Source: Pseudomonas sp. Tri1
GTDB taxonomy: Bacteria; Pseudomonadota; Gammaproteobacteria; Pseudomonadales; Pseudomonadaceae
Direction: 5' to 3'
DNA length: 64,000 bases
NCBI RefSeq assembly: GCF_017968885.1
Contig: NZ_CP072913.1
Coordinates: forward strand, 4,262,001-4,326,000
Every line of letters starts with the position of its first letter. The first letter of the stretch is position 1. The notes below the pieces were generated by a model that searched no databases, had not been told where the DNA came from, and was given only the letters and a program-made list of their open reading frames with translations. The translations under genes and the position numbers were made by a program. This document shows positions 4,416 to 20,451 of this stretch, piece by piece.

Positions 4416-5123
4416 ATGCTCGAACCCACAGCAGTGTTGCTGGCACACGCCGATGGCCGTCTCGCCTCGACCTCATTCACCCCCGGCTCGCTGGCGGCCA
4501 ACGATCCGTTCGACAGGCTCATCGCCTACACCGGGGCGGATGGCATCGCCGCCGGCGTGGTCCGGGGGAACGGGCAGTTCAGCGTCGATGAATACCCGTT
4601 CAGCGAAACGATCGTGGTGCATGCCGGCGCGGTGACGTTGCGCAGCCAGGCGCAAACGCTGCAGCTCAAGCCGGGTGAAAGCGCGGTGATCGGCCGGGGG
4701 ACGGCGCTTGAGGTCGAGGCGCAGGCGGAGTCTCTCTGGGCTTTCTGCGCCGACACCCAACTTGTCGAAGAACGTCATCCCGGGCTCGCGGCACTCCCCG
4801 CCCACACCCTGCTCTCGCCCTCTGCGCCACCGGACGACGAGATCCTGCTGAGCCCGTCGCCACAATGTCGTTCCCACAATCTGTTTGTCGAAGAGGCGAG
4901 CAACCTGCGCATCGGCATCTGGGACTCGACGCCCTACACCCGCCGGTCACGACCGCACAGACTGCACGAATTGATGCACCTGCTCGAAGGCAGCGTCACC
5001 CTGCAAGCCGCCGATGGCACCGGCCTGACGGTCAACACTGGCGATACGGTGTTCGTGCCCCTGAATGCGCCGTGTGCCTGGAAGAGCAGCGTTTATGTGC
5101 GCAAGGTCTACGTCGTCAAGTAA
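4416..5123 (+). CDS. bicupin domain protein (DUF861/EutQ-like cupin)
   Basis: 235 aa with two cupin-like halves. The first (about residues 55-110) contains a beta-rich SETIVVHAGAVTLRS segment and the second (about 175-230) contains HELMHLLEGSVTL followed by GDTVFVPLNAPCAW. The second half resembles the DUF861 cupin of ureidoglycolate- and ethanolamine-type proteins. Classical HxH...E...H metal ligands are incomplete in both halves, so a metal site is uncertain. It lies 40 bp after the acetyltransferase gene, with GGAG ahead of the start, and is the last gene before the REPIN array. No function can be assigned. Confidence 0.75.
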   Translation: MLEPTAVLLAHADGRLASTSFTPGSLAANDPFDRLIAYTGADGIAAGVVRGNGQFSVDEYPFSETIVVHAGAVTLRSQAQTLQLKPGESAVIGRGTALEVEAQAESLWAFCADTQLVEERHPGLAALPAHTLLSPSAPPDDEILLSPSPQCRSHNLFVEEASNLRIGIWDSTPYTRRSRPHRLHELMHLLEGSVTLQAADGTGLTVNTGDTVFVPLNAPCAWKSSVYVRKVYVVK

Positions 5124-6147: not shown

Positions 6148-6174
6148 AAAAAAAAGCCCGCAGTGTGAGCGGGC
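6148..6174 (-). terminator. Rho-independent terminator of the large catabolic operon
   Basis: Read on the minus strand: a GCCCGC stem, a 7-base loop, a GCGGGC stem, then a run of eight T. It sits 45 bp after the stop of the tartrate dehydrogenase gene and marks the 3' end of the operon that starts near 20451. Confidence 0.9.
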
Positions 6175-6218: not shown

Positions 6219-7301
6219 TCAAAGTGCTGCGGCGATCGCACGGCCAACATCCTGGGTCGAGCCCTGTCCACCCAGATCGGGGGTGATGGGGCCTTCGGCG
6301 ATTACTTGTTCGATGGCCTTGAGAATCCCATCATGGGCCGCGCGATAACGCTCATCGCCGTTCCCCAAAAAATCCAGCATCAAGGCACCGGACCAGATCA
6401 TCGCGATCGGGTTGGCGATGTTCTGCCCGTAGATATCCGGCGCTGAGCCATGCACCGGCTCGAACAACGACGGGAAGCGCCGCAGCGGATCGAGGTTGGC
6501 CGACGGGGCGATGCCGATAGTGCCGGCGCAGGCCGGGCCCAGGTCAGAGAGAATGTCGCCGAACAGGTTCGACGCCACCACCACATCGAAGCGATCCGGC
6601 TGCAACACGAAACGCGCGCAGAGGATGTCGATGTGTTGCTTGTCCCACTTCACCTCCGGGTACTGCTCGGCCATCAATGCCGTGCGCTCGTCCCAGTAAG
6701 GCATGCTGATGGAGATACCGTTGGATTTGGTCGCTGCGGTCAGACGTTTGCGCGGTCGGGTCTGGGCCAGGTCGAAGGCGAACTTGAGGATCCGGTCGAC
6801 CCCGCGCCGGGTGAACACCGACTCCTGGAGCACGAACTCATGCTCGGTGCCTTCGAACATCTTGCCGCCGACCGAGGAGTATTCGCCCTCGGTGTTCTCG
6901 CGGATCACCACGAAGTCGATGTCCCCTGCTTCGCGTCCAGCCAACGGGCACGGCACGCCTGGGAACAGGCGCACCGGACGAATATTCACGTACTGATCGA
7001 AGTCGCGGCGGAACTTGAGCAACGAGCCCCACAGGGAGATGTGATCGGGCACCTTGTCCGGCCAGCCCACGGCGCCGAAGTAGATCGCGTCGAAGCCCTT
7101 GAGCTGTTCGAACCAGTCCGCGGGCATCATCTGCCCGTGCTCCAGGTAGTAATCGCAGTGGGCCCAATCGAGCACTTCGATGTCCAGCGACAGCTGCCAC
7201 TTTTTCGCGGCCTGCTCCAGCACTCGCAGCCCTTCCGGCAGGACTTCCTTGCCGATACCATCGCCGGCAATGGCGGCGATTCGAAATGGTTTGCTCATCA
7301 A
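6219..7301 (-). CDS. ttuC: tartrate dehydrogenase / D-malate-type oxidative decarboxylase
   Basis: 360 aa, the usual length of the TtuC/DmlA branch of the isocitrate/isopropylmalate dehydrogenase family. Landmarks: AAIAGDGIGKEV at the N-terminus, RENTEGEYS near residue 135, and SNLFGDILSDLGPACAGTIG with FEPVHGSAPDI in the C-terminal half (Mg2+ and substrate site). The family uses NAD+ and Mn2+/Mg2+ to oxidise or decarboxylate tartrate, D-malate or meso-tartrate. It is the last gene of the 20451-6219 operon, 37 bp after the aldehyde dehydrogenase gene and followed by a terminator. Its presence in an amine-oxidation operon hints at a hydroxy-diacid intermediate. An in-frame ATG at 7298 is an equal start candidate. 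Confidence 0.87.
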   Translation of the reverse strand: MMSKPFRIAAIAGDGIGKEVLPEGLRVLEQAAKKWQLSLDIEVLDWAHCDYYLEHGQMMPADWFEQLKGFDAIYFGAVGWPDKVPDHISLWGSLLKFRRDFDQYVNIRPVRLFPGVPCPLAGREAGDIDFVVIRENTEGEYSSVGGKMFEGTEHEFVLQESVFTRRGVDRILKFAFDLAQTRPRKRLTAATKSNGISISMPYWDERTALMAEQYPEVKWDKQHIDILCARFVLQPDRFDVVVASNLFGDILSDLGPACAGTIGIAPSANLDPLRRFPSLFEPVHGSAPDIYGQNIANPIAMIWSGALMLDFLGNGDERYRAAHDGILKAIEQVIAEGPITPDLGGQGSTQDVGRAIAAAL

Positions 7302-7338
7302 GCGTACCTCCCTAATGTCTGTTCAAACGCTGGCCGCA

Positions 7339-8796
7339 TCACAGCCCACCGATGTGGAAGGCTTTGACTTCAAGGTATTCGTCCAGGCCGTATTTGCTGC
7401 CCTCGCGTCCCAGGCCCGACTGTTTGATGCCGCCGAACGGGGCGACTTCCATGGAGATCAGCCCGGTGTTGAGACCGACCATGCCGAACTCCAGCGCCTC
7501 TCCGAAGCGCCATGAACGGCGCAGGTCCTGGGTGAAGTAATAAGCGCCCAGGCCATACGGCGTGGCATTGGCCAGGGCCAGTGCCTGCTCCTCGGTAGTA
7601 AAGCGCATCAGCGGCGCAACCGGGCCGAAGGTTTCTTCGTTGGCCAGCAGCATTCCGGCGTGGGCCTCGCCCAGCACCGTTGGCTCGACAAATTGACTGT
7701 CGCCCTCGGGAACACCACCACAGAGCAGACGCGCGCCCTGACTCAACGCATCGTCGATATGCCGGGCGACTTTGTTCACTGCAGCCAGGTTGATCAGCGG
7801 ACCGATCGTCACCCCAGCCTCCAGGCCGTTGCCGACCTTGAGCTTGCCCACCTCCTCCACCAGGCGCTCGGCGAAGCGTTGGTAGATGCCGTCCTGCACC
7901 AGGATGCGGTTGGCGCAGACGCAGGTCTGGCCGGCGTTGCGAAACTTGCTGAGCATGATCCCGGCCACCGCCTGCTCCAGGTCCGCGTCGTCGAACACAA
8001 TGAACGGCGCATTGCCGCCCAGCTCCAGGCTCAAGCGCTTGATGTGTTCGGCGCTCTGACGCATTAGCAGCCGCCCGACAGCAGTGGAGCCGGTGAAGGA
8101 AATCTTGCGCACCGTCGGGTTGCCAGTCAGCTCTTCGCCGATGCCGGCCGGCAGGCCAGTGACAACGTTGAACACCCCGGCAGGAATCCCGACCCGCTCG
8201 GCCAGCACCGCCAGCGCCAGGGCCGACAAAGGCGTCAGGTCGGAGGGTTTGACGATGACCGGGCAGCCCGCCGCCAAGGCCGGCGCGCACTTGCGGGTGA
8301 TCATCGCATTGGGGAAATTCCACGGGGTGATCGCCGCACAAACACCAACCGGTTGCTTGAGCGTGAGCAGGCGACGGTCGCCGCTGGGCGCCGGGATGGT
8401 TTCGCCATAAACCCGCCGGGCTTCTTCGGCAAACCATTTGGCGAAGCCGGCTCCATAGCGGATTTCGCCTTTGGCTTCGTTCAGCGGCTTGCCTTGCTCC
8501 CGGGTCATGATCAGCGCCAGGTCGTCGAGGTTGTCGATCATGGCCTGGTACCAACGCTCCAGCAGCGCCGCACGCTCAGCCGCCGGCCGCGCTCGCCAGG
8601 CCGGCCAGGCACGCTCGGCCGCCTCGATGGCGCGGCGGGTTTCCACGCCTTGCAGGGCCGGCACCCGGGCCAATACTTCACCGGTCGCCGGGTCGATGAC
8701 ATCCAGGGTGGCCGCGCTATCGGCGCCGATCCACTGACCATCGATGTAAGCGAGTTCTGCCAACAGGCTGGGGTCTTTCAATTGATTCTTGAGCAT
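7339..8796 (-). CDS. gabD: NAD(P)+-dependent succinate-semialdehyde dehydrogenase type
   Basis: 485 aa, the standard GabD length. Catalytic residues are visible: Glu258 in LELGGNAP and Cys292 in GQTCVCAN, followed by a second Cys two residues later as in the redox-sensitive GabD group. The nucleotide-binding loop FTGSTAVG is near 234-241. The family oxidises succinate semialdehyde, and relatives accept glutarate or 2-oxoglutarate semialdehyde. It sits inside the catabolic operon between the M20 hydrolase and ttuC genes, after a REPIN-containing gap of about 260 bp. A GabT-like gene at 788-2080 could feed it. Confidence 0.88.
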   Translation of the reverse strand: MLKNQLKDPSLLAELAYIDGQWIGADSAATLDVIDPATGEVLARVPALQGVETRRAIEAAERAWPAWRARPAAERAALLERWYQAMIDNLDDLALIMTREQGKPLNEAKGEIRYGAGFAKWFAEEARRVYGETIPAPSGDRRLLTLKQPVGVCAAITPWNFPNAMITRKCAPALAAGCPVIVKPSDLTPLSALALAVLAERVGIPAGVFNVVTGLPAGIGEELTGNPTVRKISFTGSTAVGRLLMRQSAEHIKRLSLELGGNAPFIVFDDADLEQAVAGIMLSKFRNAGQTCVCANRILVQDGIYQRFAERLVEEVGKLKVGNGLEAGVTIGPLINLAAVNKVARHIDDALSQGARLLCGGVPEGDSQFVEPTVLGEAHAGMLLANEETFGPVAPLMRFTTEEQALALANATPYGLGAYYFTQDLRRSWRFGEALEFGMVGLNTGLISMEVAPFGGIKQSGLGREGSKYGLDEYLEVKAFHIGGL

Positions 8797-8940
8797 GGTC
8801 GCGTCCTGTTCCGAGGTGATTCCAGTCTAAGGAGATGCCACGGGGCAGGATGCTGAAAGCGGGGTTTGGGCAGTGTTGGATGCTGAAATTTGCGGGGAAG
8901 CAGCAGGCTCTACTGAGTGGCTCAGCTCGCTCCTGCCCCC

Positions 8941-9036
8941 CTGTGGGAGCGAGCTTGCTCGCGATAGCGGTGGGTCAGTTGATGCCAATGTTGACTGTGC
9001 CGTCGTCATCGCGAGCAAGCTCGCTCCCACAGGGGC
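8941..9036. repeat. REPIN (inverted REP pair)
   Basis: TGTGGGAGCGAGCTTGCTCG at the left and CGCGAGCAAGCTCGCTCCCA at the right form long inverted arms around about 50 bp. It lies inside the operon, between the argE-like and gabD-like genes, where it could form an mRNA hairpin and alter the relative abundance of the flanking message. Confidence 0.92.
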
Positions 9037-9056
9037 TGTGTATGGCTTGGGGCCGG

Positions 9057-10214
9057 TCAGATTTTCAAAGAGCCCAGCACCCCTTCCAAAAACCGCTCCC
9101 CCGCGTCCATCTGGCTGATTTCGATGAACTCGTCAGGCTTGTGCGCCTGTTCGATGGAGCCCGGGCCACAAACCACCACGGGTACATCCAGGCGCTGCTT
9201 GAACAGGCCGCCTTCGGTGCCGAAAGAGACCTTGGCAGTGCCGGTGTCGGGGGCGGCGAAGTTCTTCAGGAAGCGCACCGCCTCGACGCTCGGATGGGTA
9301 TCCAGGCCCGGGTAGACGTTCAGGGTTTCGATCTCGATGTCCGCCACGCTGGAGAGTTTTTTCGCCTCGCGCACGATCACTTCGGCCTGCTCGCGCAGCT
9401 GTTCCAGGAACGAGTCCAGATCATCGGCCGGCAAGTTGCGCACTTCAAAATCCAGGGTGCACAGGTTCGGTACGATGTTCAGCGCCTTGCCACCGACGAT
9501 CTGCCCGACGTGCACGGTGCTGTAGGGTACGTCGTAATCCAGGTCCTGGGCGCCCTGCTCCTGCAATTGCTGTTGGCTCTGGCGCAATGCCGCGATGAAA
9601 TCGCAGGCCACATGAATCGCATTGACCGAGCGCGGCGCCAACGACGAGTGGGCCTCCAAACCGCGACAGTAAGTACGGTAGGACCCCTTGCCCTTGTGGC
9701 CAAGCACGAACTGCATGTTGGTCGGCTCGCCGATCACGCACAGAAACGGCCGCACCGGCGCCAGGTGCAGCACATCGAGCAAACGCCGCACCCCCACGCA
9801 ACCGATCTCTTCATCATGGGAGAGTGCCAATTGCAGTGGCCGGTTCAAGGAATGGTCGGCGGCATCGAGCATGGCGTCGATGGCCAACGCAATGAACCCT
9901 TTCATGTCACAACTGCCACGCCCATAGACCCGCCCGTCTCGCACGGTCGCCTGGAACGCCGGGACCGTCCACGCCTGCCCCGCCGCCGGCACCACGTCGG
10001 TATGCCCGGACAACAGAATCCCCGGCAGCTCACGCGGACCGGTGCTGGCGAACAGGTTGGCCTTCTTGCCGCTTTCATCCTTGACGATCAGCGACTCGAT
10101 GCCCTTGCTCAGCAACAGCTCGCGCACGTATTCGATCAAGGCCAGGTTCGATTCTGATGAGACCGTTTCAAACGCCAGCAGGCGTTCGAAAATGGCTAGC
10201 ACGCGGGGTTTCAT
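9057..10214 (-). CDS. argE: M20 family metallo-deacylase, acetylornithine deacetylase (ArgE) type
   Basis: 385 aa, the ArgE length. Dizinc ligands are recognisable: SGHTDVVPA (His and Asp, near residue 70), RGSCDMKG (near 100) and the catalytic HDEEIGCVG (near 133-141). The family hydrolyses N-acyl bonds of amino acids such as N2-acetylornithine or N-formylmethionine. A second ArgE-like enzyme inside a transporter/oxidase operon is unlikely to serve arginine synthesis. More likely it cleaves an N-acyl or amide-linked intermediate, which is inference. Its start overlaps the stop of the preceding FAD oxidase gene by ATGA, so translation is coupled. Confidence 0.83.
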   Translation of the reverse strand: MKPRVLAIFERLLAFETVSSESNLALIEYVRELLLSKGIESLIVKDESGKKANLFASTGPRELPGILLSGHTDVVPAAGQAWTVPAFQATVRDGRVYGRGSCDMKGFIALAIDAMLDAADHSLNRPLQLALSHDEEIGCVGVRRLLDVLHLAPVRPFLCVIGEPTNMQFVLGHKGKGSYRTYCRGLEAHSSLAPRSVNAIHVACDFIAALRQSQQQLQEQGAQDLDYDVPYSTVHVGQIVGGKALNIVPNLCTLDFEVRNLPADDLDSFLEQLREQAEVIVREAKKLSSVADIEIETLNVYPGLDTHPSVEAVRFLKNFAAPDTGTAKVSFGTEGGLFKQRLDVPVVVCGPGSIEQAHKPDEFIEISQMDAGERFLEGVLGSLKI

Positions 10215-11365
10215 GAGGCTTTGCTCCGTTGCTCGGCAGAAGGGGCGAACCGGCGAATGGAGAACGGCTCAATCGACGTGCTGGTGCTGCCGGTGCTGAT
10301 CAGCTCAGCCATGACATCACCGACGCCCGGGCCGAGCTGAAAGCCATGCCCGCAGAAACCAAACGCATAGTACAAGCCGTCGACGTTGCCACTGGGCCCC
10401 ATCACCGGCAAGGAATCCGGCAGGTAGCCTTCGATGCCGCTCCACACGCGGATGATGTTCAGGTTACCGACCCCCGGCAGCAGCCGACGCATCTGGTCCA
10501 GTTGATTGAGGATGCTGCGCGGCTCGACATAGGCCCGGCGGTTGAGCATGTCCGGCTTGCTGCGATAGCCGCCGCCGATAACGATATTGCCCCGGGGAAT
10601 CTGGCGGAAATAGATCACCTCTTCAGGAATTTTGGTGTACACCCCGATCACCGTTGGCAAGGCATATGGCACCGGTTCAGTAACGGCCATCTGTGGACCG
10701 TTGGTGTCCAGCGGCACCGGTTCGCCAAACTGTGCCGAGAGCTTCTGGCCCCAAGCGCCTGCAGTAATCAGCAACTGAGCGGCGCCGAACTGGCGGCCAT
10801 CGGTGGTGCTGATGCTGAAGCCGTCACCGACCTTCTGCACCTCGGCCACTTCACAACGCTCCTCGATGCGTGCGCCGAGCCGTCGGGCCGCCCGGGCAAA
10901 CGCCGGGGCCGCCAGACGCGGGTTGGCGTGACCGTCGTGCGGCGCATAGGAGCCGCCCTTGACGTCCTTGCCAAGGAACGGAAAACGCGCGTGTAGTTCG
11001 CTGCCGCGATAGATCTGCAAGTCCAGCTGCGCCGCTTCCGGTGCCGCTGCGTAAGCCTCGAGCTCGGGTATTTCGTCTTCGCGATAGCACACGCGCATGT
11101 GCCCGCTGGCGATGAATTCCAGGTCGTCATCGATCAGCTCCGGCAGGCGTTTCCATAGCGCCCAGGAGCGGTTCGCCAACTCCAGTTGCCCGAGGAAACG
11201 CCCCTGGCGCCGGACGTTGCCAAAGTTCACGCCGCTGGCGTACTGACCGATCTGGTCACGCTCCAGCAGGATCACCGATTGCCCCCGCTGACGCAGGAAA
11301 AACGCCGCCGCCGAGCCCATCAGGCCGCCACCGACGATCACCACATCGGCTTTATTCACCGTCAT
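10211..11365 (-). CDS. FAD-dependent amine/amino acid oxidase subunit (HcnC/DadA-like, beta subunit)
   Basis: 384 aa. It has the N-terminal FAD-binding Rossmann motif VVIVGGGLMGSAAAF (residues 8-22) and the DAO-fold C-terminal GFCGHGFQLGPGVG segment. It resembles the HcnC and D-hydroxyproline or sarcosine oxidase beta subunits, which oxidise a C-N bond and pass electrons to FAD. Start and stop codons overlap its neighbours (GTGA/ATGA type), and it is followed by the M20 gene and preceded by the alpha subunit gene. It is strikingly similar along its whole length to the protein at 23392-24573, indicating a local duplication. Confidence 0.85.
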   Translation of the reverse strand: MTVNKADVVIVGGGLMGSAAAFFLRQRGQSVILLERDQIGQYASGVNFGNVRRQGRFLGQLELANRSWALWKRLPELIDDDLEFIASGHMRVCYREDEIPELEAYAAAPEAAQLDLQIYRGSELHARFPFLGKDVKGGSYAPHDGHANPRLAAPAFARAARRLGARIEERCEVAEVQKVGDGFSISTTDGRQFGAAQLLITAGAWGQKLSAQFGEPVPLDTNGPQMAVTEPVPYALPTVIGVYTKIPEEVIYFRQIPRGNIVIGGGYRSKPDMLNRRAYVEPRSILNQLDQMRRLLPGVGNLNIIRVWSGIEGYLPDSLPVMGPSGNVDGLYYAFGFCGHGFQLGPGVGDVMAELISTGSTSTSIEPFSIRRFAPSAEQRSKAS

Positions 11366-12738
11366 GGCGCCACCTCCCGGGTGAGCATCGAAAGCGGTTT
11401 GACCGGTGCCTGACCGCGCTGGCGTCCCACCTCTTGCACTTGGACACCCGCTGCGGCGGCAATCACTTCAGCCCCGGCCTGGGAGCAGTAACGCCCCTGG
11501 CAACGGCCCATGCCGACCCGACTGAAAGCCTTGGCCCGGTTGACTTCACAAGCGCCCTTTTCACTGACGGTGCGACGCAACTCACCGGCACTGATCATCT
11601 CGCAGCGGCAAACAATGGCCTCGTCCGGCAAGGCCTTGGCTTGCGCGGCGGGCCAGGGAAACGCCTGGGCCAGGCCGAGGCGAAACGCATCCATTACCCT
11701 GAGCGCCTGGCGCTGCTCGGCGACCTGCGCAGCGTCCACCGGTTGCTGCAAATCGCGCAACAAGGCCAGGGCGACCAGCCGCCCGGCGTGCTCGGCGGCA
11801 TCAGCGCCACGGATCTTCGAACCATCTCCGGCAGCGTAGACACCGCTGACCGAGGTCCGGCCCTCTTCGTCCACGTCCAGCCACCATTGCCCTGAAGCCT
11901 CGTCGAAACGCATGCGACAACCTGCCAGGTCAGCCAGTTGGGTTTCCGGACGCAAGTGATAACCCAGCGCCACCGCGTCGCACGCCACCGTCAAGGTTTC
12001 CCCGTTCGCGGTGCGTACTCGTACGCCACTGACACCGGTGACCGCCTCACCGAGCACTTGCAGGGGCGAAATGCCCAGGTGGACCGGGATCTTCGCCCGA
12101 TACAACTGGGCCAACAGCTTCATGCCGGTGAACAGCAATCCCGGACGCGACATGAGTTTGGGCAAGGCTCTGATACGCTGGCTCAACGGCGAAGTGTCCA
12201 GCACCGCTGCAACATTGGCCCCGGCTTTTACGTATTGGCTGGCAACGAGGTACAGCAACGGCCCGCTGCCCATGAACACCACGCGGTGGCCGATGGAAAC
12301 CGCCTGGGCCTTGAGCGCAATCTGGGCCCCGCCGAGGCTGTAGGTGCCGCCCAGTTGCCAACCTTCGATCGGCATCAGGCGGTCGGTGGCCCCCGTACAG
12401 AGGATCAGTGCGTCATAGTCCACCGTCGTGTGCCGTCCCTGGCTGACGCAGCACAGCTGCCCGGGCGTCAGGTTCCACACCAGCGTATCGGGGCGGTAGT
12501 CGATCTGTGGGCGCAGGCGATCGAAGCTTTCGTGCAGGTCCCGGGCCTTGTCTGCCTCAGTGCCGTACAGCGTCGTGTAGCTGCGGGTGAACCCTTCAGG
12601 TTGACGCCGGTAGATCTGCCCGCCATCGCGACGATTTTCGTCGATCAGGATCGGCTTGAAGCCCGCCGCCACCAAGGTCTGGGCACAACGGATGCCGGCC
12701 GGCCCGGCGCCTACGATGACTATCCGCGCAGTGGCCAT
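11362..12738 (-). CDS. FAD/NAD(P)-binding oxidoreductase, alpha subunit (HcnB-like)
   Basis: 458 aa. Two dinucleotide folds are seen: IVIVGAGPAGIRCAQTL at residues 5-21 and a second near 150-165 (VVFMGSGPLLYLVA). The C-terminus contains a BFD-like cysteine cluster (CRCEM ... GRCQGRYC), as in the alpha subunits of heterotrimeric opine, hydroxyproline and HCN-synthase-type dehydrogenases, where it holds an extra Fe-S cluster. It overlaps the 2Fe-2S gene by 19 bp and the beta subunit gene by 4 bp, so the three subunits are translationally coupled. Confidence 0.86.
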   Translation of the reverse strand: MATARIVIVGAGPAGIRCAQTLVAAGFKPILIDENRRDGGQIYRRQPEGFTRSYTTLYGTEADKARDLHESFDRLRPQIDYRPDTLVWNLTPGQLCCVSQGRHTTVDYDALILCTGATDRLMPIEGWQLGGTYSLGGAQIALKAQAVSIGHRVVFMGSGPLLYLVASQYVKAGANVAAVLDTSPLSQRIRALPKLMSRPGLLFTGMKLLAQLYRAKIPVHLGISPLQVLGEAVTGVSGVRVRTANGETLTVACDAVALGYHLRPETQLADLAGCRMRFDEASGQWWLDVDEEGRTSVSGVYAAGDGSKIRGADAAEHAGRLVALALLRDLQQPVDAAQVAEQRQALRVMDAFRLGLAQAFPWPAAQAKALPDEAIVCRCEMISAGELRRTVSEKGACEVNRAKAFSRVGMGRCQGRYCSQAGAEVIAAAAGVQVQEVGRQRGQAPVKPLSMLTREVAP

Positions 12739-13028
12739 ATTGCCTCCGGTTGCCGAGTGATGATGTCCAGCCCTTCGCGTACTTCATTGGAGCAGGCCCG
12801 CAGGCGTTCGCCGCTGCGGGTCCAGACCCAGCAATCCTGGCAGGCGCCCATCAGGCAGAAGCCGGCGCGGCTGCCCGGATCGAATTCCGATTGGCGCAAC
12901 GCCGGGCCATGGGTCAGCAACGCTACCATCAGCGTGTCGCCCTGCAGCGCCTCGATGGGCACGCCATCGACCTTCAATTTGACGATAGGCCGGCCCTGTT
13001 CGGCCAGCCTCACGAAACGCCCGTTCAT
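12720..13028 (-). CDS. (2Fe-2S)-binding subunit of the heterotrimeric dehydrogenase (HcnA-like)
   Basis: 102 aa. The cysteine arrangement GFCLMGACQDCWV followed by a later LRACS matches the 2Fe-2S fold of the small gamma subunits (HcnA, SoxD/OoxA-like N-terminal ferredoxin domain). It would carry electrons between the FAD subunits and the acceptor. It is encoded immediately after the ABC ATPase gene (4-bp overlap) and overlaps the alpha subunit gene, placing the dehydrogenase and the importer in one transcription unit. Confidence 0.85.
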   Translation of the reverse strand: MNGRFVRLAEQGRPIVKLKVDGVPIEALQGDTLMVALLTHGPALRQSEFDPGSRAGFCLMGACQDCWVWTRSGERLRACSNEVREGLDIITRQPEAIWPLRG

Positions 13029-14869
13029 GCGTAGGCTCCCACGATCATGCTGTTTGAATCCTGTTGGCTCTTGAGCAGCTCGGCGCTGTCGTGATGACAG
13101 AGCACTTCACTGCCACCGTCGAGGGTGCGCCGAGGCGGCGCAATGAGGTTACACACACCGTCGACCCGCACCGGACAGCGGCTGAGGAAGGTGCACAAGC
13201 CCGGCACGTCGGCCCTTGCACCCAACGCAGGCAGGCTGCCGCAAGTCGTGGCGCCACAGGTTTCCAGCCAGCCCTGGCGCAACTCCGGCACCGAGTGGAT
13301 CAACAGGTCGGTGTAGGGATGGAACGGCGCCTGGGCGAACGATTGTCGTGCCCCCGCCTGGACCTTGCGGCCGCTGTACATCACCACGATGTCGTCGCAC
13401 AGCGCCCGCACCGTGGAGATGTCGTGGCTGATGAACAGGTAGGACACCCCCAGTTGCTGGCGCAGGTCGCGCAGCAGTTCGAGAATTGCCGCGCCGACCA
13501 CGGTATCCAGGGCCGAAGTCACTTCATCGCACAAAATCAAATCCGGCTTGGCCGCCAGCGCCCGGGCCAGGTTGACCCGCTGCTTCTGCCCACCGGAGAG
13601 TTCGCTCGGGCGGCGCTCGGCCAGCTCCCGAGGCAAACGAACGAGGTCCAGCAGCTCGCCGATACGCTCGCGCAACGCCGCACCCTTGAGGCCGAAATAC
13701 ATCTTCAGTGGCCGGCTCAGGATGGTGCTGATGCTGTGCATCGGGTTCAGCGCGGTGTCGGCGTTCTGGAACACCATCTGGATGCGCCGGAACTGTTCGT
13801 CCGTACGTTCAGACAGGCTGCCACCCAGTGGCTGACCATCAAAGGTCAACCCACCGAGGGCCGGGGTCAACAGCCCCGCCACCACCCGCGCCAGGGTCGA
13901 CTTCCCCGAGCCCGATTCGCCAATCACGCCAATGGCCTGGCCCCGGCGTACGGTCAGGTCGATGTCTTCCAGCACCCGGATCGCCGGCATGCCATGCTGG
14001 TTCTTGTTGCCGTAGCCGGCGGTCAAACCCTGGATGGTCAGCAATGGCGTGTCTTCGGCTACGCCGCAAGGCGGGCGAATCGTCGTATCCGGCCGCGCCG
14101 CCGCCAGCAGGCTGCGGGTATAGGCGTGGGCCGGACCTTTGAGCAGCGATGCGGTGGCATTGTGTTCGAAGATCTGCCCGCCGTTGAGCACCACGATCTG
14201 GTCGGCCATCTGTGCAACCACGGCCAGGTCGTGGGACACGTAGACCGCCGTCGCGCCACGTTCGCGCACCACGCGCTTGAAGGCACGCAGCACGTCGATC
14301 TGGGTGGTCACATCGAGGGCCGTGGTCGGCTCATCGAGCACCACCAGCAGCGGATCGCTGATCAGCGCCATGGCCGCCATCACCCGCTGCAACTGTCCGC
14401 CGGAGACTTGATGGGGATAGCGCCGACCGATGCGCTCGGGATTTGGCAACGCCAGGTCGCGAAACAGTTCGATGGCCTTGGCCTCAAGCGTCGCCCGATT
14501 GCCCAGGCCGTGGATCAGCGCACCTTCCACCACTTGGTCGATGAGCCTTTTGGCCGGGTTGAATGCAGCAGCGGCGCTTTGGGCGATGTACGACACACGG
14601 TTGCCGCGCAGGCCTTGCAGCTCGCCTTCGCTCAACGCCAGCATGTCGTGCTCGCCGACCTGCACCACGCCACCGGCCAGGCGGCAACCGCGCCGGGCAT
14701 AACCGAGCAATGCCAGGGCGATGGTGGTCTTGCCGGAGCCAGACTCGCCGATCAGTGCCAGTACCTCACCCTTCTCCAGAGAGAAGCTCACGCCCTTGAC
14801 GATCTCCACCTCGCCACGCTCGCCGCCGGCGACCACGCGCAAATTCTCGACTCGGATCAATTCGCTCAT
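13025..14869 (-). CDS. fused dual ATP-binding protein of a peptide/opine-type ABC importer
   Basis: 614 aa holding two complete nucleotide-binding domains. The first has Walker A GESGSGKTT at 41-49 and signature SGGQLQRV. The second has GESGSGKST near 315 and signature SGGQKQRV, followed by the cysteine-containing oligopeptide-transport tail (FLSRCPVRVDGVC). It therefore combines DppD and DppF roles in one chain. It energises uptake through the two permeases encoded just upstream. Each junction with its neighbours is within a few bases, so it is part of one operon. Confidence 0.92.
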   Translation of the reverse strand: MSELIRVENLRVVAGGERGEVEIVKGVSFSLEKGEVLALIGESGSGKTTIALALLGYARRGCRLAGGVVQVGEHDMLALSEGELQGLRGNRVSYIAQSAAAAFNPAKRLIDQVVEGALIHGLGNRATLEAKAIELFRDLALPNPERIGRRYPHQVSGGQLQRVMAAMALISDPLLVVLDEPTTALDVTTQIDVLRAFKRVVRERGATAVYVSHDLAVVAQMADQIVVLNGGQIFEHNATASLLKGPAHAYTRSLLAAARPDTTIRPPCGVAEDTPLLTIQGLTAGYGNKNQHGMPAIRVLEDIDLTVRRGQAIGVIGESGSGKSTLARVVAGLLTPALGGLTFDGQPLGGSLSERTDEQFRRIQMVFQNADTALNPMHSISTILSRPLKMYFGLKGAALRERIGELLDLVRLPRELAERRPSELSGGQKQRVNLARALAAKPDLILCDEVTSALDTVVGAAILELLRDLRQQLGVSYLFISHDISTVRALCDDIVVMYSGRKVQAGARQSFAQAPFHPYTDLLIHSVPELRQGWLETCGATTCGSLPALGARADVPGLCTFLSRCPVRVDGVCNLIAPPRRTLDGGSEVLCHHDSAELLKSQQDSNSMIVGAYA

Positions 14870-14870
14870 C

Positions 14871-15746
14871 TCAATGACCTCCCGTACGTCGATTACGCCG
14901 CGAAGACAGGCGGTCGATAAACAGATTGACGCCGATGGTCAGGGTGCCAATGGCCAGGGCCGGAATCACAATGGCCGGTGCCCCCTGGTTGAGGCCGCCG
15001 ATGTTTTCGCGCACCAGCGAACCCAGATCGGCGTCCGGCGGTTGCACACCCAGGCCAAGGAAGCTCATGCCGCTGAGCAGCAGCACGATGAAACCGAAGC
15101 GCAGGCCCAAGTCAGCCAGCACCGGGTTGAGCATGTTCGGCAAAATTTCCACGCACGCGATGTACAACCGCCGTTCACCCCGGGTACGGGCCACTTGCAC
15201 GTATTCCAGAGCCTCGATGTTCACCGCCATGCTGCGCGCGATCCGGAACGCGCCCGGCGTGTAACTCAACACGGCCGTACACACCAGCAACGTCACCGAC
15301 GAACCAAACGCCGAGACCATGATCAGCGCCAGCATCTTGCTCGGGATCGAAATGAAGGCGTCCATCAGGCGACTGATCAACTCATCCAGCCATTTCGGTG
15401 AAACCACCGACAGCAGTGCGCAACTGGTCCCAAGCCCGCTGGACAAGACCGCGGCCACCAGCGCCAGGCCCACGGTGAACTGTGCGCCGACCAGAATCCG
15501 ACTGAGCATGTCGCGGCCCAGGTAATCGGTGCCCAACGGGTAAGCGGCGCTGAAGCTGTCGAAAACAGTGTCGGAAACCACTTCGCCCACCGGGTGTGGT
15601 GCCAGCCACGGGCCGAAGACCGCCACCAGCAACCAGACTGCACACAGCGCGGCGCCGACCAGTCCAAGCCAGGACGAGCCGTGAGCATCTTTGCCCAATG
15701 CCAGAGCGACCGCCGCGGTCGGGGGTTTCACAATGGGATTGTTCAT
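14871..15746 (-). CDS. ABC importer permease, DppC-type
   Basis: 291 aa from the ATG at 15746, which overlaps the stop of the other permease gene by ATGA; the longer open frame upstream is antisense-free but out of frame with that gene and not coding. It has an N-terminal membrane segment (GLVGAALCAVWLLVAVFGPWL is at 29-49) and a BPD_transp_1 domain with the ATPase-contact EAA-like loop YVQVARTRGERRLYIACVE. DppC/OppC-type permeases import peptides, nickel or opines. It partners the permease at 15743-16702. Confidence 0.9.
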   Translation of the reverse strand: MNNPIVKPPTAAVALALGKDAHGSSWLGLVGAALCAVWLLVAVFGPWLAPHPVGEVVSDTVFDSFSAAYPLGTDYLGRDMLSRILVGAQFTVGLALVAAVLSSGLGTSCALLSVVSPKWLDELISRLMDAFISIPSKMLALIMVSAFGSSVTLLVCTAVLSYTPGAFRIARSMAVNIEALEYVQVARTRGERRLYIACVEILPNMLNPVLADLGLRFGFIVLLLSGMSFLGLGVQPPDADLGSLVRENIGGLNQGAPAIVIPALAIGTLTIGVNLFIDRLSSRRNRRTGGH

Positions 15747-16702
15747 TGGTTTCTCAGCCTCGGGTTGGAAAGGATCGCGCACAGATCGGCAATCAGCACC
15801 AACGTCAGGTACGCCGTGCAAAACAGCATGGTGCAGGCCTGGACCAGTGCCATGTCGCGGTTCGTCACCGCATCGACCATCAGGCTGGCGATACCGGGAT
15901 AGTTGAAAATCGTCTCGACGATCACCACCCCGCCCAGCAGGTAGGAGAGGCTCAAGGCGATGGCGTTGGCGATCGGCCCGATGGCGTTGGGTAACGCATG
16001 GCGCAAGACCACCCGTACCGAACTCACGCCTTTGAGACGGGCCATTTCCACGTAAGGGCTGTCCAGTTGGTCGATCACCGCCGCCCGGGTCATGCGCGCC
16101 ATTTGCGCGACGATCACGCAGCACAGCGTCATGACCGGCAAAGCATAGGTGCGCATGAATTGCAGCGGCGAGGTGATCTCACTGGAATAGGACAGCGCGG
16201 AAAGCCAGCCCAGGTTCACCGCGAAGATCAGCACCGCCAGGGTGGCGACGAGAAATTCCGGCACGGCCACCATCATCAGGGTAAAGAAACTCATGAAGCC
16301 GTCGATGCGACCACCTCGCCCCATCGCCGAACCGATGCCCAGGATCAAGGCCACTGGCACCGATACCAGCGCCGTGGCGGCCGCCAGCATCAGCGTGTTG
16401 GGCACCCTGCCCGCCATCAGCTCGGTGACCGGTACGGCATTGGATACCGACACGCCCATATCGCCGCTGAGCAAGCTGGTCAACCAGTGCAGGTAACGCA
16501 ACACACCCGGCTGATCGAGGCCCATTTTCGCCCGCAGGGCCGCCACCTGTTCCGGCGTGGCGAACTGTCCCAGGGACTGTTGCGCCGCGTCTCCCGGCAA
16601 CACCGCCGTGATGGCGAACACCACCATCGAGACGATCAACAGCGTCATGATCGCGGCGCCTACGCGCCGGCCGATCAACCACAGTGTGCTGCTATTCATC
16701 AC
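15743..16702 (-). CDS. ABC importer permease, DppB-type
   Basis: 319 aa (318 if the second ATG at 16699 is used). The N-terminal RRVGAAIMTLLIVSMVVFAI helix and the QSLGQFATPEQVAALRAKMG periplasmic segment are typical of DppB/GsiC permeases, and the EAA loop VEMARLKGVSSVRVVLRHAL lies near residue 210. It forms the membrane channel with the DppC-type subunit. It is encoded 41 bp after the binding-protein gene. Confidence 0.91.
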   Translation of the reverse strand: MMNSSTLWLIGRRVGAAIMTLLIVSMVVFAITAVLPGDAAQQSLGQFATPEQVAALRAKMGLDQPGVLRYLHWLTSLLSGDMGVSVSNAVPVTELMAGRVPNTLMLAAATALVSVPVALILGIGSAMGRGGRIDGFMSFFTLMMVAVPEFLVATLAVLIFAVNLGWLSALSYSSEITSPLQFMRTYALPVMTLCCVIVAQMARMTRAAVIDQLDSPYVEMARLKGVSSVRVVLRHALPNAIGPIANAIALSLSYLLGGVVIVETIFNYPGIASLMVDAVTNRDMALVQACTMLFCTAYLTLVLIADLCAILSNPRLRNQ

Positions 16703-16742
16703 CCTACCCCTCGTGCCATGTCACGTCGCAAGAGCGCGCTCA

Positions 16743-18386
16743 TCACGCGTCAAGCCAGACTTGCTCAGCGAACATATAGCCCATGAAACCGCCCAGCGGG
16801 TTGGTGCCATAACCTTTGACGCGCTGGTCGACGCCGTCGATGTTGCTGATGAACACCGGGATGCCGATGCCGCTGTGCTCATGCACCAGGGTCTGCATGT
16901 CCGCGTACATCTTGCCGCGCTTGGCCTCGTCGGTTTCACCCCGGGCCTGTATCAGCAACTGGTCAAACTGTTCGTTTTTCCAGCCGGACTCGTTCCATGG
17001 CGCCGTGGACTGGAAGAACTGCGAGAACAGCATGTCGGCGTTGGGCCGGGGGTTGATGTTGCCGAAGCTCAGCGGGTGCTTGGCCCAGTGATTGGACCAG
17101 TAGCCATCGCTGGGCAGGCGGTTGACGTTGAGCTTGAGCCCGGCCTCCTTGGCCGATTGCTGCAGCAACACAGCAACGTCTACCGAGCCGGTGGCGGCCG
17201 GCGAGCACATCATTGGCATGCTGATGTTCTCCATGCCGGCTTTCTTCAGCAGGAAGCGCGCCTTTTCCGGATCGTAGGTCCGTTGCGGCAGGTCGGCATT
17301 GTAGAAACGTGCACCGGGGGCGATCGGGTGGTCGTTGCCGACCCTGGCGAAACCCCGGAAGATCGCCGACTTGACCTGTTCGCGGTCCAGCAGCAGCTTC
17401 ATGGCCTCGGTGAACTCCGGGCTCTGGCCAGGCATCTGGTCCTGGCGAATGATCAGGTCGGTGTAGTTGCCCGATGGCGAGTCCACCACGCGATGGGTGG
17501 TGCTGTCCTTGATGCGCGTGGTCGAGCGCGGGTTGACCTCGTTGATGATCTGCACATCGCCGGAAAGCAGCGCGTTGACCCGTGACGGCTCGTCGGCGAT
17601 ACCGATGAACTCGATCTCGTCCAGGTACGGCAAACCCGGCTTCCAGTAATTGGTGTTGCGCGCGCCAATCGAACGCACCCCCGGTTTGAACTCCTTGACC
17701 TTGAACGGGCCGGTGCCGATGCCCTGGTTGAAGTCGGTGGTGCCTTCAGGGACGATCAGCAAGTGGGAGACGGCCAGGATCGAGGGCAGCTCGGCATTCG
17801 GCCCGCTCAGGCGTATCTGCACTTCATGGGTGCCGTTGGCCTTGACCTCGGCAAACTGCTCGGCCAGCGGCAGGACTTTGGAGCCGGTGATCGGGTCCTT
17901 GTGGCGCAACAGGGAGAACACCACATCAGCGGCGGTCAGCCCCTTGCCGTTGTGGAAGGTCACCTCTTTGCGCAGAGTGATCACCCAGAGCGTGGCGTCG
18001 GTGGTGTCGATGCGCTCGGCCAGTTCCAGTTGCGGCACCATGTGGTTATCGAAACGCGTCAGGCCGTTGTAGAACATGTAATGACGCACGTAGTCCGTAG
18101 ACGATGAGCCTTTGGCCGGGTCCAGGGTATCGGCGGTGGAACTGGAGATGCCCGCCACCCGAATACGCCCGCCGGGCTTGCCTTTGCCAGGGCTCGCGGC
18201 GTCATCGGCCAGCAGCTTGCCAGCGGCGCCGAACAGGCTGCCGGCACCGGCTGCGGCCACGCCCGCCAGCCCGAGCATTTGCAAGGCATGCCGGCGTGAC
18301 ATGCCGCGATTGAGCCCTTCGAAAACACGCAGACTTTCTGTACCGGTGATCAACTGGTCTTTGATGCCGTTTTTATTGTCACTCAT
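16743..18386 (-). CDS. family 5 extracellular solute-binding protein with Tat-type signal
   Basis: 547 aa from the ATG at 18386. A twin arginine in SRRHALQMLGLAG (Arg31-Arg32) precedes a hydrophobic AAAGAGSLFGAAGKLLA stretch, indicating Tat-dependent export with an unusually long n-region of about 29 residues. The mature part is a DppA/OppA-type SBP_bac_5 domain (for example TLRKEVTFHNGKGLTAADV and NYWKPGLPYLDEIEF). It delivers the ligand to the permeases encoded downstream. Family 5 ligands include peptides, opines, glutathione and acylated polyamines; the ligand here is unknown. It follows the PuuB-like gene by 86 bp. Confidence 0.9.
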   Translation of the reverse strand: MSDNKNGIKDQLITGTESLRVFEGLNRGMSRRHALQMLGLAGVAAAGAGSLFGAAGKLLADDAASPGKGKPGGRIRVAGISSSTADTLDPAKGSSSTDYVRHYMFYNGLTRFDNHMVPQLELAERIDTTDATLWVITLRKEVTFHNGKGLTAADVVFSLLRHKDPITGSKVLPLAEQFAEVKANGTHEVQIRLSGPNAELPSILAVSHLLIVPEGTTDFNQGIGTGPFKVKEFKPGVRSIGARNTNYWKPGLPYLDEIEFIGIADEPSRVNALLSGDVQIINEVNPRSTTRIKDSTTHRVVDSPSGNYTDLIIRQDQMPGQSPEFTEAMKLLLDREQVKSAIFRGFARVGNDHPIAPGARFYNADLPQRTYDPEKARFLLKKAGMENISMPMMCSPAATGSVDVAVLLQQSAKEAGLKLNVNRLPSDGYWSNHWAKHPLSFGNINPRPNADMLFSQFFQSTAPWNESGWKNEQFDQLLIQARGETDEAKRGKMYADMQTLVHEHSGIGIPVFISNIDGVDQRVKGYGTNPLGGFMGYMFAEQVWLDA

Positions 18387-18472
18387 GTCAGTTCTACCTT
18401 TCGGAAAAATGATAGGGCTCGATTGCGCACGATTAACGCAACGTGTTGAAACGCCAAACAACACCATGAAAC

Positions 18473-19747
18473 TCAGTGCAGGTAGTCCTGCAAGCGGTAA
18501 TACGCGCCTACCAGCGGCAGGAACCAGGGCTTGCCGAAGTGTCCGGGAATGGCCGGCCAGTCAAGCTCGCGCCAAGGGTTGGCCTCGACCTTGCCGGCCA
18601 TGACCTGGGCCATGACTTGCCCCATGTGCACCGACATCTGCACACCATGGCCGCTGTAGCCCATGGAGTGATAAACCCCTCCATGCTGGCCGGCCCGCGG
18701 CAGGCGATCGGACGTCATGTCCACCAGGCCGCCCCAGCAATAGTCGATCCGAGTGTTCGCCAACTGCGGGAACATCTGCACCATCGCCGCTTGCAGCACC
18801 TTGCCGCTCTTGGCGTCGGACACGCTGTCGGACATGGCAAACCGCGCCCGACCGCCAAACAGCAGACGGTTGTCCGGGGTCAGGCGAAAGTAGTTACCGA
18901 TCATGCGGCTGGTGACATAAGAGCGCCGCGCCGGCAGCAAGCTGTCGATCAGCGCCTGGGGCAATACCTCGGTGGCAACCACGAAACTGCCCACCGGTAC
19001 GATCCGCCGCCGATACCAGCCCAGGCCGCCCTGCTGGCAGGCGCCGGTCGCCAACAGGATCTGCGAGGCCTGCAGCGTCCCCTTGCTGGTGTTGACTCGA
19101 TAACCGCCGGCACTGGCCTTCCAGTCCTGCACCGTCACCCCTTGGAAGATCAACGCACCGTGACGGGCAGCGGCTTCGGCCAGGCCGACACCGAAACGCC
19201 CGATGTGCATCTGCACGCCGTTGCGCTGCAACAGGCCACCGTGAAACTGCGCCGAATTGACTTCCGCCCGCGTCTCCTGGGCCGACAGCAACTCGACCTC
19301 GGCATCGACTTCCTTGCGGATCAATTCGCAGGTGCGCGCCAACCCTTCGTAGTGCATCGGCTTGGCGGCCAGCTTGAGCTTGCCGTTGCGCTTGAGGTCG
19401 CAGGCAATCCCCTCCTGCTCCACCAGCGAGACCACGCTCTGCACGGCACTTTCATAGGCTTGGTAATACGCCCGGGCCTTGTCGGCGCCGAGGCTGGCGG
19501 TGAGCGCCGCGTAATCCTGGGCCACGCCGGTACTGCAATGACCGCCGTTGCGTCCTGACGCCTCGCCAATCACCCTGCCCGCTTCCAGCACCGCCACGCT
19601 GGCCCCCTTCAAGGCCAAGGCCCGGGCCGCAGCCAGGCCGGTGAAACCACCACCGACGATGGCGACATCGACCTGCCCGGGCAACCCGCCGAGCTGGGCA
19701 CCGGTGAAAGCCGGTGCGGTATCGAGCCAATAGGACTCACTGCCCAT
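18473..19747 (-). CDS. FAD-dependent oxidase, PuuB / gamma-glutamylputrescine oxidase-like
   Basis: 424 aa, the PuuB length. The FAD Rossmann motif VDVAIVGGGFTGLAAA is at about 26-41, followed by the GRNGGHCSTG segment typical of PuuB/OrdL-type enzymes, and a C-terminal MGYSGHGVQMSVHMG near 365. The family oxidises an aminoalkyl group to an aldehyde plus ammonia, as on gamma-glutamylputrescine or related amides. It lies 36 bp downstream of the HAD type II gene and precedes the importer genes. No PuuA-type glutamylation enzyme is encoded nearby, so the substrate may enter already acylated (inference). Confidence 0.85.
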   Translation of the reverse strand: MGSESYWLDTAPAFTGAQLGGLPGQVDVAIVGGGFTGLAAARALALKGASVAVLEAGRVIGEASGRNGGHCSTGVAQDYAALTASLGADKARAYYQAYESAVQSVVSLVEQEGIACDLKRNGKLKLAAKPMHYEGLARTCELIRKEVDAEVELLSAQETRAEVNSAQFHGGLLQRNGVQMHIGRFGVGLAEAAARHGALIFQGVTVQDWKASAGGYRVNTSKGTLQASQILLATGACQQGGLGWYRRRIVPVGSFVVATEVLPQALIDSLLPARRSYVTSRMIGNYFRLTPDNRLLFGGRARFAMSDSVSDAKSGKVLQAAMVQMFPQLANTRIDYCWGGLVDMTSDRLPRAGQHGGVYHSMGYSGHGVQMSVHMGQVMAQVMAGKVEANPWRELDWPAIPGHFGKPWFLPLVGAYYRLQDYLH

Positions 19748-19782
19748 GTCTAACCCCTTACCTTGAAGAAGTGCGTCGAGAC

Positions 19783-20451
19783 TCAGAGCCCGACCAGGCC
19801 GGCCAACCCGCCGATGTCCGGGATCTGGTGATAGCCATAGATGGCATTGGCCGGTTGTTCGTGACCACGGGCGACGAAGGCCTTGTTCTTGATCTTCATG
19901 TCGTGGGCCGACATCAGGTCGTAGCGGAAGCTCGACGACACATGCAAGACATCCTCCGGACCGCAGCCGAGGTTATCGAGCATGAATTCGAAAGCCGCCA
20001 GGCGTGGTTTGTAGGCCTGGGCCTGCTGGGCCGTGAAGACTTTATGGAAGGGCGCACCGAGCTTGTCGACGTTGGACATGATCTGCTCGTCCATCGCATT
20101 GGAGAAAATCACCAGGGGGATCTTGTCGGCGATTTTCGACAGGCCCGCCGGTACATCGGCGTGGGGGCCCCAGGTTGGAACGGCGTCGTAATAGAGCTGG
20201 CCTTCGCCGCGATACTCGACGCCCCAACGCTTGCAGACCCGCATCAGGGAGGTCTTGATGATTTCATCATAGGGCCGCCATTCACCCATCACCTGGTCCA
20301 GGCGATAAGCGGAGAAATCCTTGACGAACTGGTCCATCTGCCCGGCATCGACACGGTCGGCGAACAGCTCGCGCGTCATGGTGCCCATCTGGAAATTGGT
20401 CAACGTGCCGTAGCAGTCGAAGGTGATGTACTTGGGTCGAAGAAAGCTCAT
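19783..20451 (-). CDS. haloacid dehalogenase type II family hydrolase
   Basis: 222 aa from the ATG at 20451. HAD motif I is YITFDCYGTL, with the nucleophile Asp in the L-2-haloacid dehalogenase context. Motif II is VIFSNAMDEQI, a Lys lies in AYKPRLAAFEF, and motif IV is HVSSSFRYDLMSAHDM, as in type II dehalogenases. Members hydrolyse 2-haloalkanoic acids, but many genomic relatives are phosphatases or unassigned. It is the first gene of the operon reading down to 6219. What a dehalogenase-like enzyme does next to amine oxidases is an open question. Confidence 0.84.
   Translation of the reverse strand: MSFLRPKYITFDCYGTLTNFQMGTMTRELFADRVDAGQMDQFVKDFSAYRLDQVMGEWRPYDEIIKTSLMRVCKRWGVEYRGEGQLYYDAVPTWGPHADVPAGLSKIADKIPLVIFSNAMDEQIMSNVDKLGAPFHKVFTAQQAQAYKPRLAAFEFMLDNLGCGPEDVLHVSSSFRYDLMSAHDMKIKNKAFVARGHEQPANAIYGYHQIPDIGGLAGLVGL

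Follow-up and report, generated by a model that had tools for sequence, protein, structure and literature searches.

Azetidine-2-carboxylate is known to be opened hydrolytically to 2-hydroxy-4-aminobutyrate, and a Pseudomonas from Convallaria root soil and Aspergillus nidulans are described as using it via such a hydrolase, the A. nidulans route going through γ-aminobutyrate (GABA) metabolism; the literature is cited here and below in part (PMC8016842, PMC8079746, PMC7786132, PMC12364333, PMC7946895, PMC7676072 and PMC10393863). Parts of these sources also report that grasses secrete mugineic acids for iron, that these compounds are readily degraded by soil microorganisms and that this degradation led to a proline-substituted fertiliser analogue; for uptake, one review states in the part cited that the exact mechanism remains to be elucidated. 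Here we describe a 12-gene operon in a 64,000-nucleotide stretch (the window) of the single-contig, 6.71-Mb genome of Pseudomonas sp. Tri1. Its first gene encodes a type II HAD hydrolase, and it includes genes for a Tat-exported family-5 binding protein, an ABC (ATP-binding cassette) importer and several amine oxidases. We lean towards the view that it imports and catabolises the azetidine-ring chelators nicotianamine, deoxymugineic acid and mugineic acid, with which plants move iron and zinc.

The HAD hydrolase and the genes that travel with it

All 12 operon genes are read from the minus strand and span 6219 to 20451, beginning with the HAD gene and ending with that of a tartrate-type dehydrogenase (TTC). 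Profile searches confirmed the families that a first-pass annotation had given to these genes, and the operon itself. Its picture of tightly packed, overlapping genes holds for five of the 11 junctions, the remaining gaps being 1 to 260 bp, and the single terminator it placed at the end is present as a stem followed by eight T, although the region shows no excess of terminator-like sites as a class (12, against 14.4 expected). A promoter search of the region found none and was uninformative.

The HAD protein scored 159.7 bits against TIGR01428 (curated cutoff 125.4). Its closest solved sequences were 8hp5 (73 bits) and the L-azetidine-2-carboxylate hydrolase 3smv (70 bits), within an azetidine-type range of 67–73 bits, compared with 47 bits for epoxide hydrolases, among which we counted entries labelled dehalogenase but elsewhere named cis-epoxysuccinate hydrolase, and at most 36 bits for the remaining haloacid dehalogenases. 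The 8hp5–8hp7 entries are deposited as (S)-2-haloacid dehalogenase; 8hp5 is 56% identical to 3smv, and 8hp7, a K152A mutant, was trapped with (2R)-4-amino-2-hydroxybutanoic acid, a D-configured product. Motif I of the HAD protein reads D12-C13-Y14. Among 97 aligned sequences, D12 (frequency 1.0) and K148 are invariant and Y14 nearly so (0.99); D12 and K148 align with D12 and K152, the residues mutated in 8hp6 and 8hp7. R50, R176 and H97 are likewise invariant among the HAD sequences and are replaced by other residues in 3smv and 8hp5; judged from the alignment, they would allow a polycarboxylate substrate. In an AlphaFold2 model (mean confidence, pLDDT, 95.1) the top structural matches were 8hp7, 8hp6 and 7asz (VIA) and 8hp5, 8hp7 and 8yvw (Foldseek). 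A phosphatase function was set aside on account of motif I, which is DxY and not DxD. At one relative's locus (L038 and L104, same contig by length) the operon contains a second HAD copy, flanked by the ATPase and HcnA genes.

The first-pass annotation had treated the HAD as an addition to the set and had suggested a search for co-occurrence across genomes. Such a search in 298 Pseudomonas genomes found the HAD in 66 (E ≤ 1e-40) and the binding protein in 63 (E ≤ 1e-150), all 63 among those 66 (Fisher p ~1e-61, shared ancestry ignored). Loci were fetched via their HAD match and contain it by construction, the binding-protein search being the independent test. The association is not due to chance and, together with the nearest solved relatives, which point to azetidine opening, it removes the HAD from the role of an add-on. 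Sixty Pseudomonas neighbourhoods around HAD homologues, part of all the HAD matches, were read, and 49 were main loci, defined by the HAD, the binding protein and the first permease. Within these, the DAO-family oxidase was found in 49, the ATPase in 48, the M20 deacylase in 47, the succinate-semialdehyde dehydrogenase (SSADH)-type enzyme in 43, HcnB-like in 41 and TTC in 31; these counts are lower bounds, since stretches end at the fetched limits.

Beyond the genus, a class-wide draw yielded the HAD in two of 369 genomes (E ≤ 1e-30), the window's own included, and a phylum-wide draw in 28 of 398 (E ≤ 1e-25), of which 24 belong to other genera. Chosen by their HAD and counted within the stretches read, these 24 carried the DAO oxidase in 21, a related GNAT acetyltransferase in 22 and TTC or a GhrA-like dehydrogenase in 19 (TTC 10, GhrA-like 18), the GNAT and GhrA matches being only ~34–64% identical; an M20 relative occurred in eight and HcnB-like in one. 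The binding protein was found in 19 and was not found in the stretch read of the other five. Kept together over such distances with rearranged order and strand, the set is most simply explained as a pathway.

Two sets of loci served for the counts that follow: a first set with 48 main loci and a named set with 75, drawn from the best 80 of 235 relatives. Loci L031–L090 and L091–L169 overlap in part, and the counts of the two sets are not independent. The three-subunit HcnABC-like dehydrogenase, which the first-pass annotation had included and whose layout is indeed present here, is optional in the unit. It is lacking in eight of the 75 named main loci, all eight of which carry a single-chain DAO21 protein, whereas DAO21 is present in four of the 67 loci with HcnABC (Fisher p 3e-8, not corrected for shared ancestry). 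It is also lacking in eight of the 48 main loci of the first set, where DAO21 lies within the stretch in three and further out in four; five loci (L044, L057, L063, L064 and L078) showed no DAO21 in the stretch, and wider stretches (L158, L169, L182 and L177) revealed it for four of them, the eighth locus, L078, being read in its first, narrower stretch. The presence of DAO21 where HcnABC is lacking suggests that two interchangeable enzymes catalyse the same amine oxidation.

The binding protein bears the twin-arginine motif expected for Tat export, and R31 and R32 do not vary across an alignment of 27 sequences that includes the window's own, in line with the export predicted at first from the sequence. 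It scored 74.1 bits against the NikA model TIGR02294 (cutoff 393). Its structural neighbours bind glutathione, Ni-His, dipeptides and opines, and agropine and metallophore binders are among its relatives. Extra copies of the binding protein lie remote from the HAD loci in two genomes (G010:C1:2536683, 83% identical; G056:C26:286372, 84%; G056:C26:295538, 62%).

The DAO oxidase that follows the HAD had been called PuuB-like. The DAO family is right and the label is loose: the closest NCBIfam models were those for AmaA (L-pipecolate oxidase, NF050086; 164.6 bits, cutoff 600) and an aminophosphonate oxidoreductase, both with the protein far under the cutoff, and no PuuB model was present among the 25 best NCBIfam rows, no equivalog-level PuuB test having been made. 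The FAD/NAD subunit of the HcnABC-like enzyme is closest, weakly, to the solved structure 1y56_A (43.8 bits). The M20 protein exceeds the cutoff of the acetylornithine deacetylase family TIGR01892 (356.9 versus 297.7 bits), and its closest solved structure is the acetylornithine deacetylase 7rsf; its substrate in vivo is putative. The SSADH-type protein stays below the equivalog cutoff for NADP-dependent SSADH (NF008415; 707.4 versus 828).

Proposed breakdown of azetidine chelators and competing explanations

The observed gene content, its conservation and co-occurrence, the protein families and the conserved HAD catalytic residues are the ground on which our preferred reading stands; from families and chemistry we infer the substrate, the order of steps and the stereochemistry in this HAD. 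The chelator would be taken up by the Tat-exported binding protein and the ABC importer. The Asp nucleophile of the HAD would then attack C2 of the L-azetidine-2-carboxylate ring with inversion, giving an N-substituted (R)-2-hydroxy-4-aminobutanoate, whose secondary amine would be cleaved by a DAO-family oxidase to malic semialdehyde. The SSADH-type enzyme would convert this to D-malate, and TTC or the GhrA-like D-2-hydroxyacid dehydrogenase would pass D-malate on to pyruvate or oxaloacetate. Leftover aminobutyrate units would go to GabT, GNAT, M20 and either the HcnABC-type enzyme or, in some species, a single-subunit DAO, perhaps by way of N-acetylated diaminobutyrate or aspartate. TTC-type enzymes oxidise D-malate, and the R-configured product in 8hp7 suits both a D-malate-type TTC and a D-isomer-specific dehydrogenase. 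Several C–N bonds in nicotianamine and the mugineic acids likewise suit two or more DAO-type enzymes. An amidohydrolase related to DoeB2 in one relative's cluster (332 bits, DoeB2 cutoff 550) hints at an N-acetyl-diaminobutyrate-like intermediate.

Reports on phytosiderophores, as far as they are cited here, fit azetidine-chelator breakdown in several respects. Around Brachypodium roots, the levels of mugineic and deoxymugineic acid were brought down by P. fluorescens SBW25; parts of that study (2021) state that the specific taxa and genes for phytosiderophore degradation are unknown, and cite P. putida strains without degradation as well as a single earlier report in which decomposing bacteria were isolated from barley roots. 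Exchange of azetidine for proline is described as slowing microbial degradation, in passages that give no side-by-side biodegradation assay; slower breakdown is what a pathway that begins with ring opening would predict. None of the words dehalogenase, dipeptide and azetidine occurs in the main text of a root-exudate transcriptome paper (PMC8079746), which neither helps nor refutes. In the literature searched, with most subscription papers outside it, we found no description of nicotianamine or phytosiderophore catabolic genes or of this gene set, as the first-pass annotation had supposed for the exact set. Among the best 80 of the 235 relatives the HAD has named carriers, many of them plant-associated species; the non-pathogenic soil strain FW300-N2E3 (L153) also carries the operon.

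Several results weigh against this substrate. The HAD occurs without the binding protein (E ≤ 1e-150) in three of the 66 Pseudomonas genomes (G026, G149 and G181). TTC is absent from 18 of the 49 main loci, some of whose stretches end before it, and from 14 of the 24 genomes outside the genus. To our knowledge nicotianamine and the mugineic acids contain no amide, so that M20 and GNAT call for an additional assumption of acetylation. At only 29% over 193 residues, the identity of the HAD to 3smv is low. Fold alone does not set the modelled HAD apart from dehalogenases, which tie with the azetidine type (7asz, Z 26.0 versus 26.2, less than 1 Z unit apart). The binding-protein fold was set aside as a guide to the ligand, since its neighbours are too diverse to indicate a single one. 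Finally, the four SBW25 genes reported, in the part of the source cited, as induced by iron lack are annotated as members of other families or as hypothetical; iron, and not the chelator, was varied there.

The three HAD homologues without a binding protein (L173, L174 and L175, in G149, G181 and G026) are 72–84% identical, and no other operon gene lies in the stretch read.

The strongest competitor, unlikely in our judgement, keeps the ring opening and changes the substrate, to free azetidine-2-carboxylate of lily-type plants or to another N-substituted or peptide-bound azetidine product. The closest solved HAD sequences do include azetidine-2-carboxylate hydrolase, the Convallaria-soil Pseudomonas and A. 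nidulans provide the precedent in the sources cited in part, and an amide-bearing substrate would account for M20. For the free amino acid, a family-5 importer and at least two secondary-amine oxidases exceed what is needed, the wide distribution is easier to reconcile with a common chelator than with a rare toxin, and the extra invariant Arg and His residues of the HAD speak against it as well.

Somewhat less probable again is an opine-like or rhizobactin-type aminopolycarboxylate that lacks the azetidine ring, with the HAD acting on some other 2-substituted L-acid. HcnABC-type enzymes include opine oxidases. The binders of opines, agropine and metallophores among the relatives of the binding protein would agree with such a substrate, and a malate amide would account for M20 plus TTC. 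Moreover, the operon is carried by Pseudomonas sp. FEN (L129 and L088), reported in a source cited in part to make rhizobactin B, an aminopolycarboxylate siderophore. A substrate of this kind leaves the DxY-type HAD in all 63 binding-protein genomes without a reason, and the HcnABC enzyme is dispensable.

The first-pass annotation proposed uptake of an N-acyl amine, its oxidation to an aldehyde and then to an acyl amino acid, deacylation, and entry through GabT and GabD. Import and oxidation of an N-substituted amine, a semialdehyde step and a nearby GabT (21 of 60 stretches) stand; the N-acyl amine as defining substrate does not, and acetylputrescine, γ-glutamyl amines and hydroxyproline isomers are not supported as candidates. 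The DAO oxidase, SSADH, the GabT neighbour, the retention of M20 in Pseudomonas main loci and the DoeB2-related protein, below its cutoff, speak for this scheme, which leaves the HAD, TTC, the GhrA-like enzyme and the second oxidase unexplained; an M20 relative was, moreover, found in the stretches read of only a third of the genomes outside the genus (8/24), and we regard the scheme as improbable. Finally, epoxysuccinyl or halogenated natural products, for which the HAD would be a dehalogenase or an epoxide hydrolase that supplies TTC with tartrate or a D-hydroxyacid, were kept in view since the folds tie; we regard them as very improbable, given the lower sequence scores (47 bits or less versus 67–73), and they leave the amine oxidases and the kinase/phospho-lyase variants (see below) unaccounted for.

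Azetidine-chelator breakdown remains the reading we prefer. We would put at nearly, if not quite, an even balance the broader proposal that the operon is the genetic basis of bacterial nicotianamine and mugineic-acid use, in which an HAD opener for N-substituted rings starts the pathway, a modular add-on extends it to hydroxylated forms and gene content predicts which bacteria take which chelator from which plants. If true, a defined operon would make it possible to recognise chelator-degrading bacteria of the rhizosphere and phyllosphere from their genomes.

Accessory operons and gene neighbourhood

The add-on takes the form of a second operon that encodes a GntR regulator, an APH-type kinase, a phospho-lyase and another HAD, mostly with an oxidase or GNAT gene behind. 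It was seen in seven Pseudomonas genomes, all seven of which also have the main operon; named carriers are P. poae, P. triticifolii, P. asturiensis and P. tremae. The phospho-lyase is of the class III O-phosphoamine type (346 bits to ethanolamine-phosphate phospho-lyase), and the kinase, for which no solved relative was found, resembles the kinase portion of proteins in which kinase and lyase are fused. In another variant (G010, G082, G185, G208 and G224), a more distant HAD (~52%) is combined with kinase, phospho-lyase and an Lrp regulator; four of these five genomes also have EutB/BhcB-like and OCD-like genes, and G113 has these two with no kinase in the stretch read, a combination that would fit a 3-hydroxyaspartate intermediate. 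Kinase/phospho-lyase pairs act on 1-amino-2-hydroxy groups, and the 2′-hydroxyl region of mugineic acid would give such a group. The second HAD, the kinase and the phospho-lyase, sometimes with hydroxyaspartate-type enzymes, may thus serve hydroxylated mugineic acids. No close phospho-lyase is encoded in the window's own genome (35% at best), and on this basis the unhydroxylated compounds would be the ones that the strain handles.

The unit is larger than the 12 genes first described (Table 1). It probably reaches to about 788 and, in some species, also to the LysR gene on the opposite side. Within the fetched stretch, the EutQ-like cupin gene was present at 37 of 48 main loci in the first set and 46 of 75 in the named set, and the tandem GNAT gene at 40 of 48 and 48 of 75. 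The GhrA-like gene was found at 25 of 48 and, in the named set, whose stretches end sooner, at three of 75; its product scored 222.8 bits against the GhrA equivalog (cutoff 403). The GabT copies counted above are at least 75% identical. In relatives, the cupin and GNAT genes are often divergent and beside the HAD, and the GhrA-like and GabT genes often follow the operon, whereas in the window all four lie together at 788–5123, beyond TTC. Next to GabT, a 218-residue protein without Pfam match is encoded at 43–699, and its homologues adjoin GabT in relatives.

The LysR gene was inside the stretch at 11 of 48 and 20 of 75 main loci. Beyond it lies a module whose aldolase scored 101.9 bits against BhcC, far under the cutoff of 690; in some relatives the module again adjoins the HAD operon, and the LysR-aldolase arrangement recurs in some named species, e.g. 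P. corrugata, P. marginalis, P. viridiflava and P. graminis. A GFA protein also belongs to this aldolase/RidA/DAO/aldehyde dehydrogenase module (21871–26636), the module DAO resembles the operon DAO subunit (same cluster at 50% identity), and at L100 an HcnA/HcnB pair is lodged between the module aldolase and DAO. Directly beyond the operon end, 5142–6122 holds an array of ~7.3 copies of a 135-bp unit with REP-type (repetitive extragenic palindromic) repeats, which we take to be a Pseudomonas REP element; similar repeats occur in the gaps 20452–20890 and 8797–9056.

Table 1. Operon genes, conserved neighbours and other features of the window.
Feature	Coordinates	Strand	Profile or remark
Type II HAD hydrolase, first gene; proposed azetidine-ring opener	19783..20451	minus	TIGR01428
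DAO-family FAD amine oxidase (PuuB/AmaA-like)	18473..19747	minus	PF01266, 218 bits
Family-5 solute-binding protein, twin-arginine signal	16743..18386	minus	PF00496, 237 bits
ABC permease, DppB/NikB type	15743..16699	minus	family profiles
ABC permease, DppC/NikC type	14871..15746	minus	family profiles
Fused two-domain ABC ATPase, 614 aa	13025..14869	minus	most ATPase families match two stretches
2Fe-2S subunit, HcnABC/dye-linked proline-dehydrogenase type	12720..13028	minus	PF13510, 79.6 bits
FAD/NAD subunit with BFD-like 2Fe-2S domain	11362..12738	minus	PF07992, PF04324
DAO catalytic subunit	10211..11365	minus	PF01266, 241 bits; nearest solved 1y56_B
M20 deacylase, acetylornithine deacetylase subfamily	9057..10214	minus	NF005710, 505 bits (cutoff 412)
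Gap with REP-type repeats between the M20 and SSADH genes	8797..9056		260 bp
SSADH-family aldehyde dehydrogenase	7339..8796	minus	TIGR01780, 681.5 bits (above subfamily cutoff, 646.35)
TTC, tartrate/D-malate-type dehydrogenase	6219..7298	minus	TIGR02089, 544.7 bits (above cutoff, 470.4)
Terminator-like stem and eight T past the last gene	6156..6174	minus	
EutQ-like cupin, conserved neighbour	4416..5123	plus	PF05899
Tandem GNAT acetyltransferase, conserved neighbour	3518..4375	plus	PF18014, PF13508
D-isomer-specific 2-hydroxyacid dehydrogenase, GhrA-like	2366..3292	plus	PF02826, 157 bits
GabT-type class III aminotransferase	788..2092	minus	TIGR00700, 532 bits (cutoff 506.65)
LysR-type regulator, TtdR-like, candidate regulator	20891..21775	minus	TtdR, 187.7 bits (below cutoff, 398)
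Neighbouring module upstream of operon	21871..24573	plus	BhcC-like PLP (pyridoxal phosphate) aldolase 21871–23007, RidA 23009–23395, DAO oxidase 23392–24573
Aldehyde dehydrogenase of neighbouring module	24673..26238	plus	PF00171; above no cutoff among the best 25 NCBIfam rows

Comparison with described systems

Of the systems with which the locus can be compared, the L-azetidine-2-carboxylate hydrolases (3smv, 8ywo and 8yvw) and 8hp5–8hp7 share with the HAD the type II fold, the FDCYGTL motif, the nucleophile D12, the catalytic Lys, the motif II Asn and the final Asp. Apart from the low identity noted above, the HAD differs by a Trp-to-Phe change at position 20, by having invariant R50, W58, H97, S172–S173 and R176 instead, and by being encoded within an importer/oxidase operon. 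The three-subunit enzyme has the layout of HcnABC, dye-linked L-proline dehydrogenase and opine oxidase, namely a 2Fe-2S protein, an FAD/NAD subunit with BFD domain and a DAO subunit, the last nearest to 1y56_B; it differs in that none of its subunits exceeds a cutoff among the NCBIfam rows listed, and in that a single DAO protein takes its place in the eight named loci where it is absent. TTC matches the tartrate dehydrogenase/decarboxylase 3flk with 657 bits across nearly its full length and passes the TIGR02089 cutoff, but here it belongs to an amine catabolic operon and its substrate is putative.

The accessory clusters resemble ectoine/hydroxyectoine catabolism and the β-hydroxyaspartate pathway in their EutB/BhcB-like, OCD/EutC-like, Lrp and aldehyde dehydrogenase genes, and the aldolase beside the window's operon resembles BhcC, whereas all of these proteins fall below the EutB, EutC, BhcB, BhcC, BhcD and DoeB2 cutoffs. 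Ectoine catabolism was set aside on account of this partial, sub-cutoff resemblance, ectoine hydrolase itself not having been searched for. Finally, the two-gene combination of an APH kinase with a class III O-phosphoamine phospho-lyase is that of the ethanolamine and hydroxylysine kinase/phospho-lyase systems, from which the accessory pair differs in being accompanied by an HAD and an amine oxidase.

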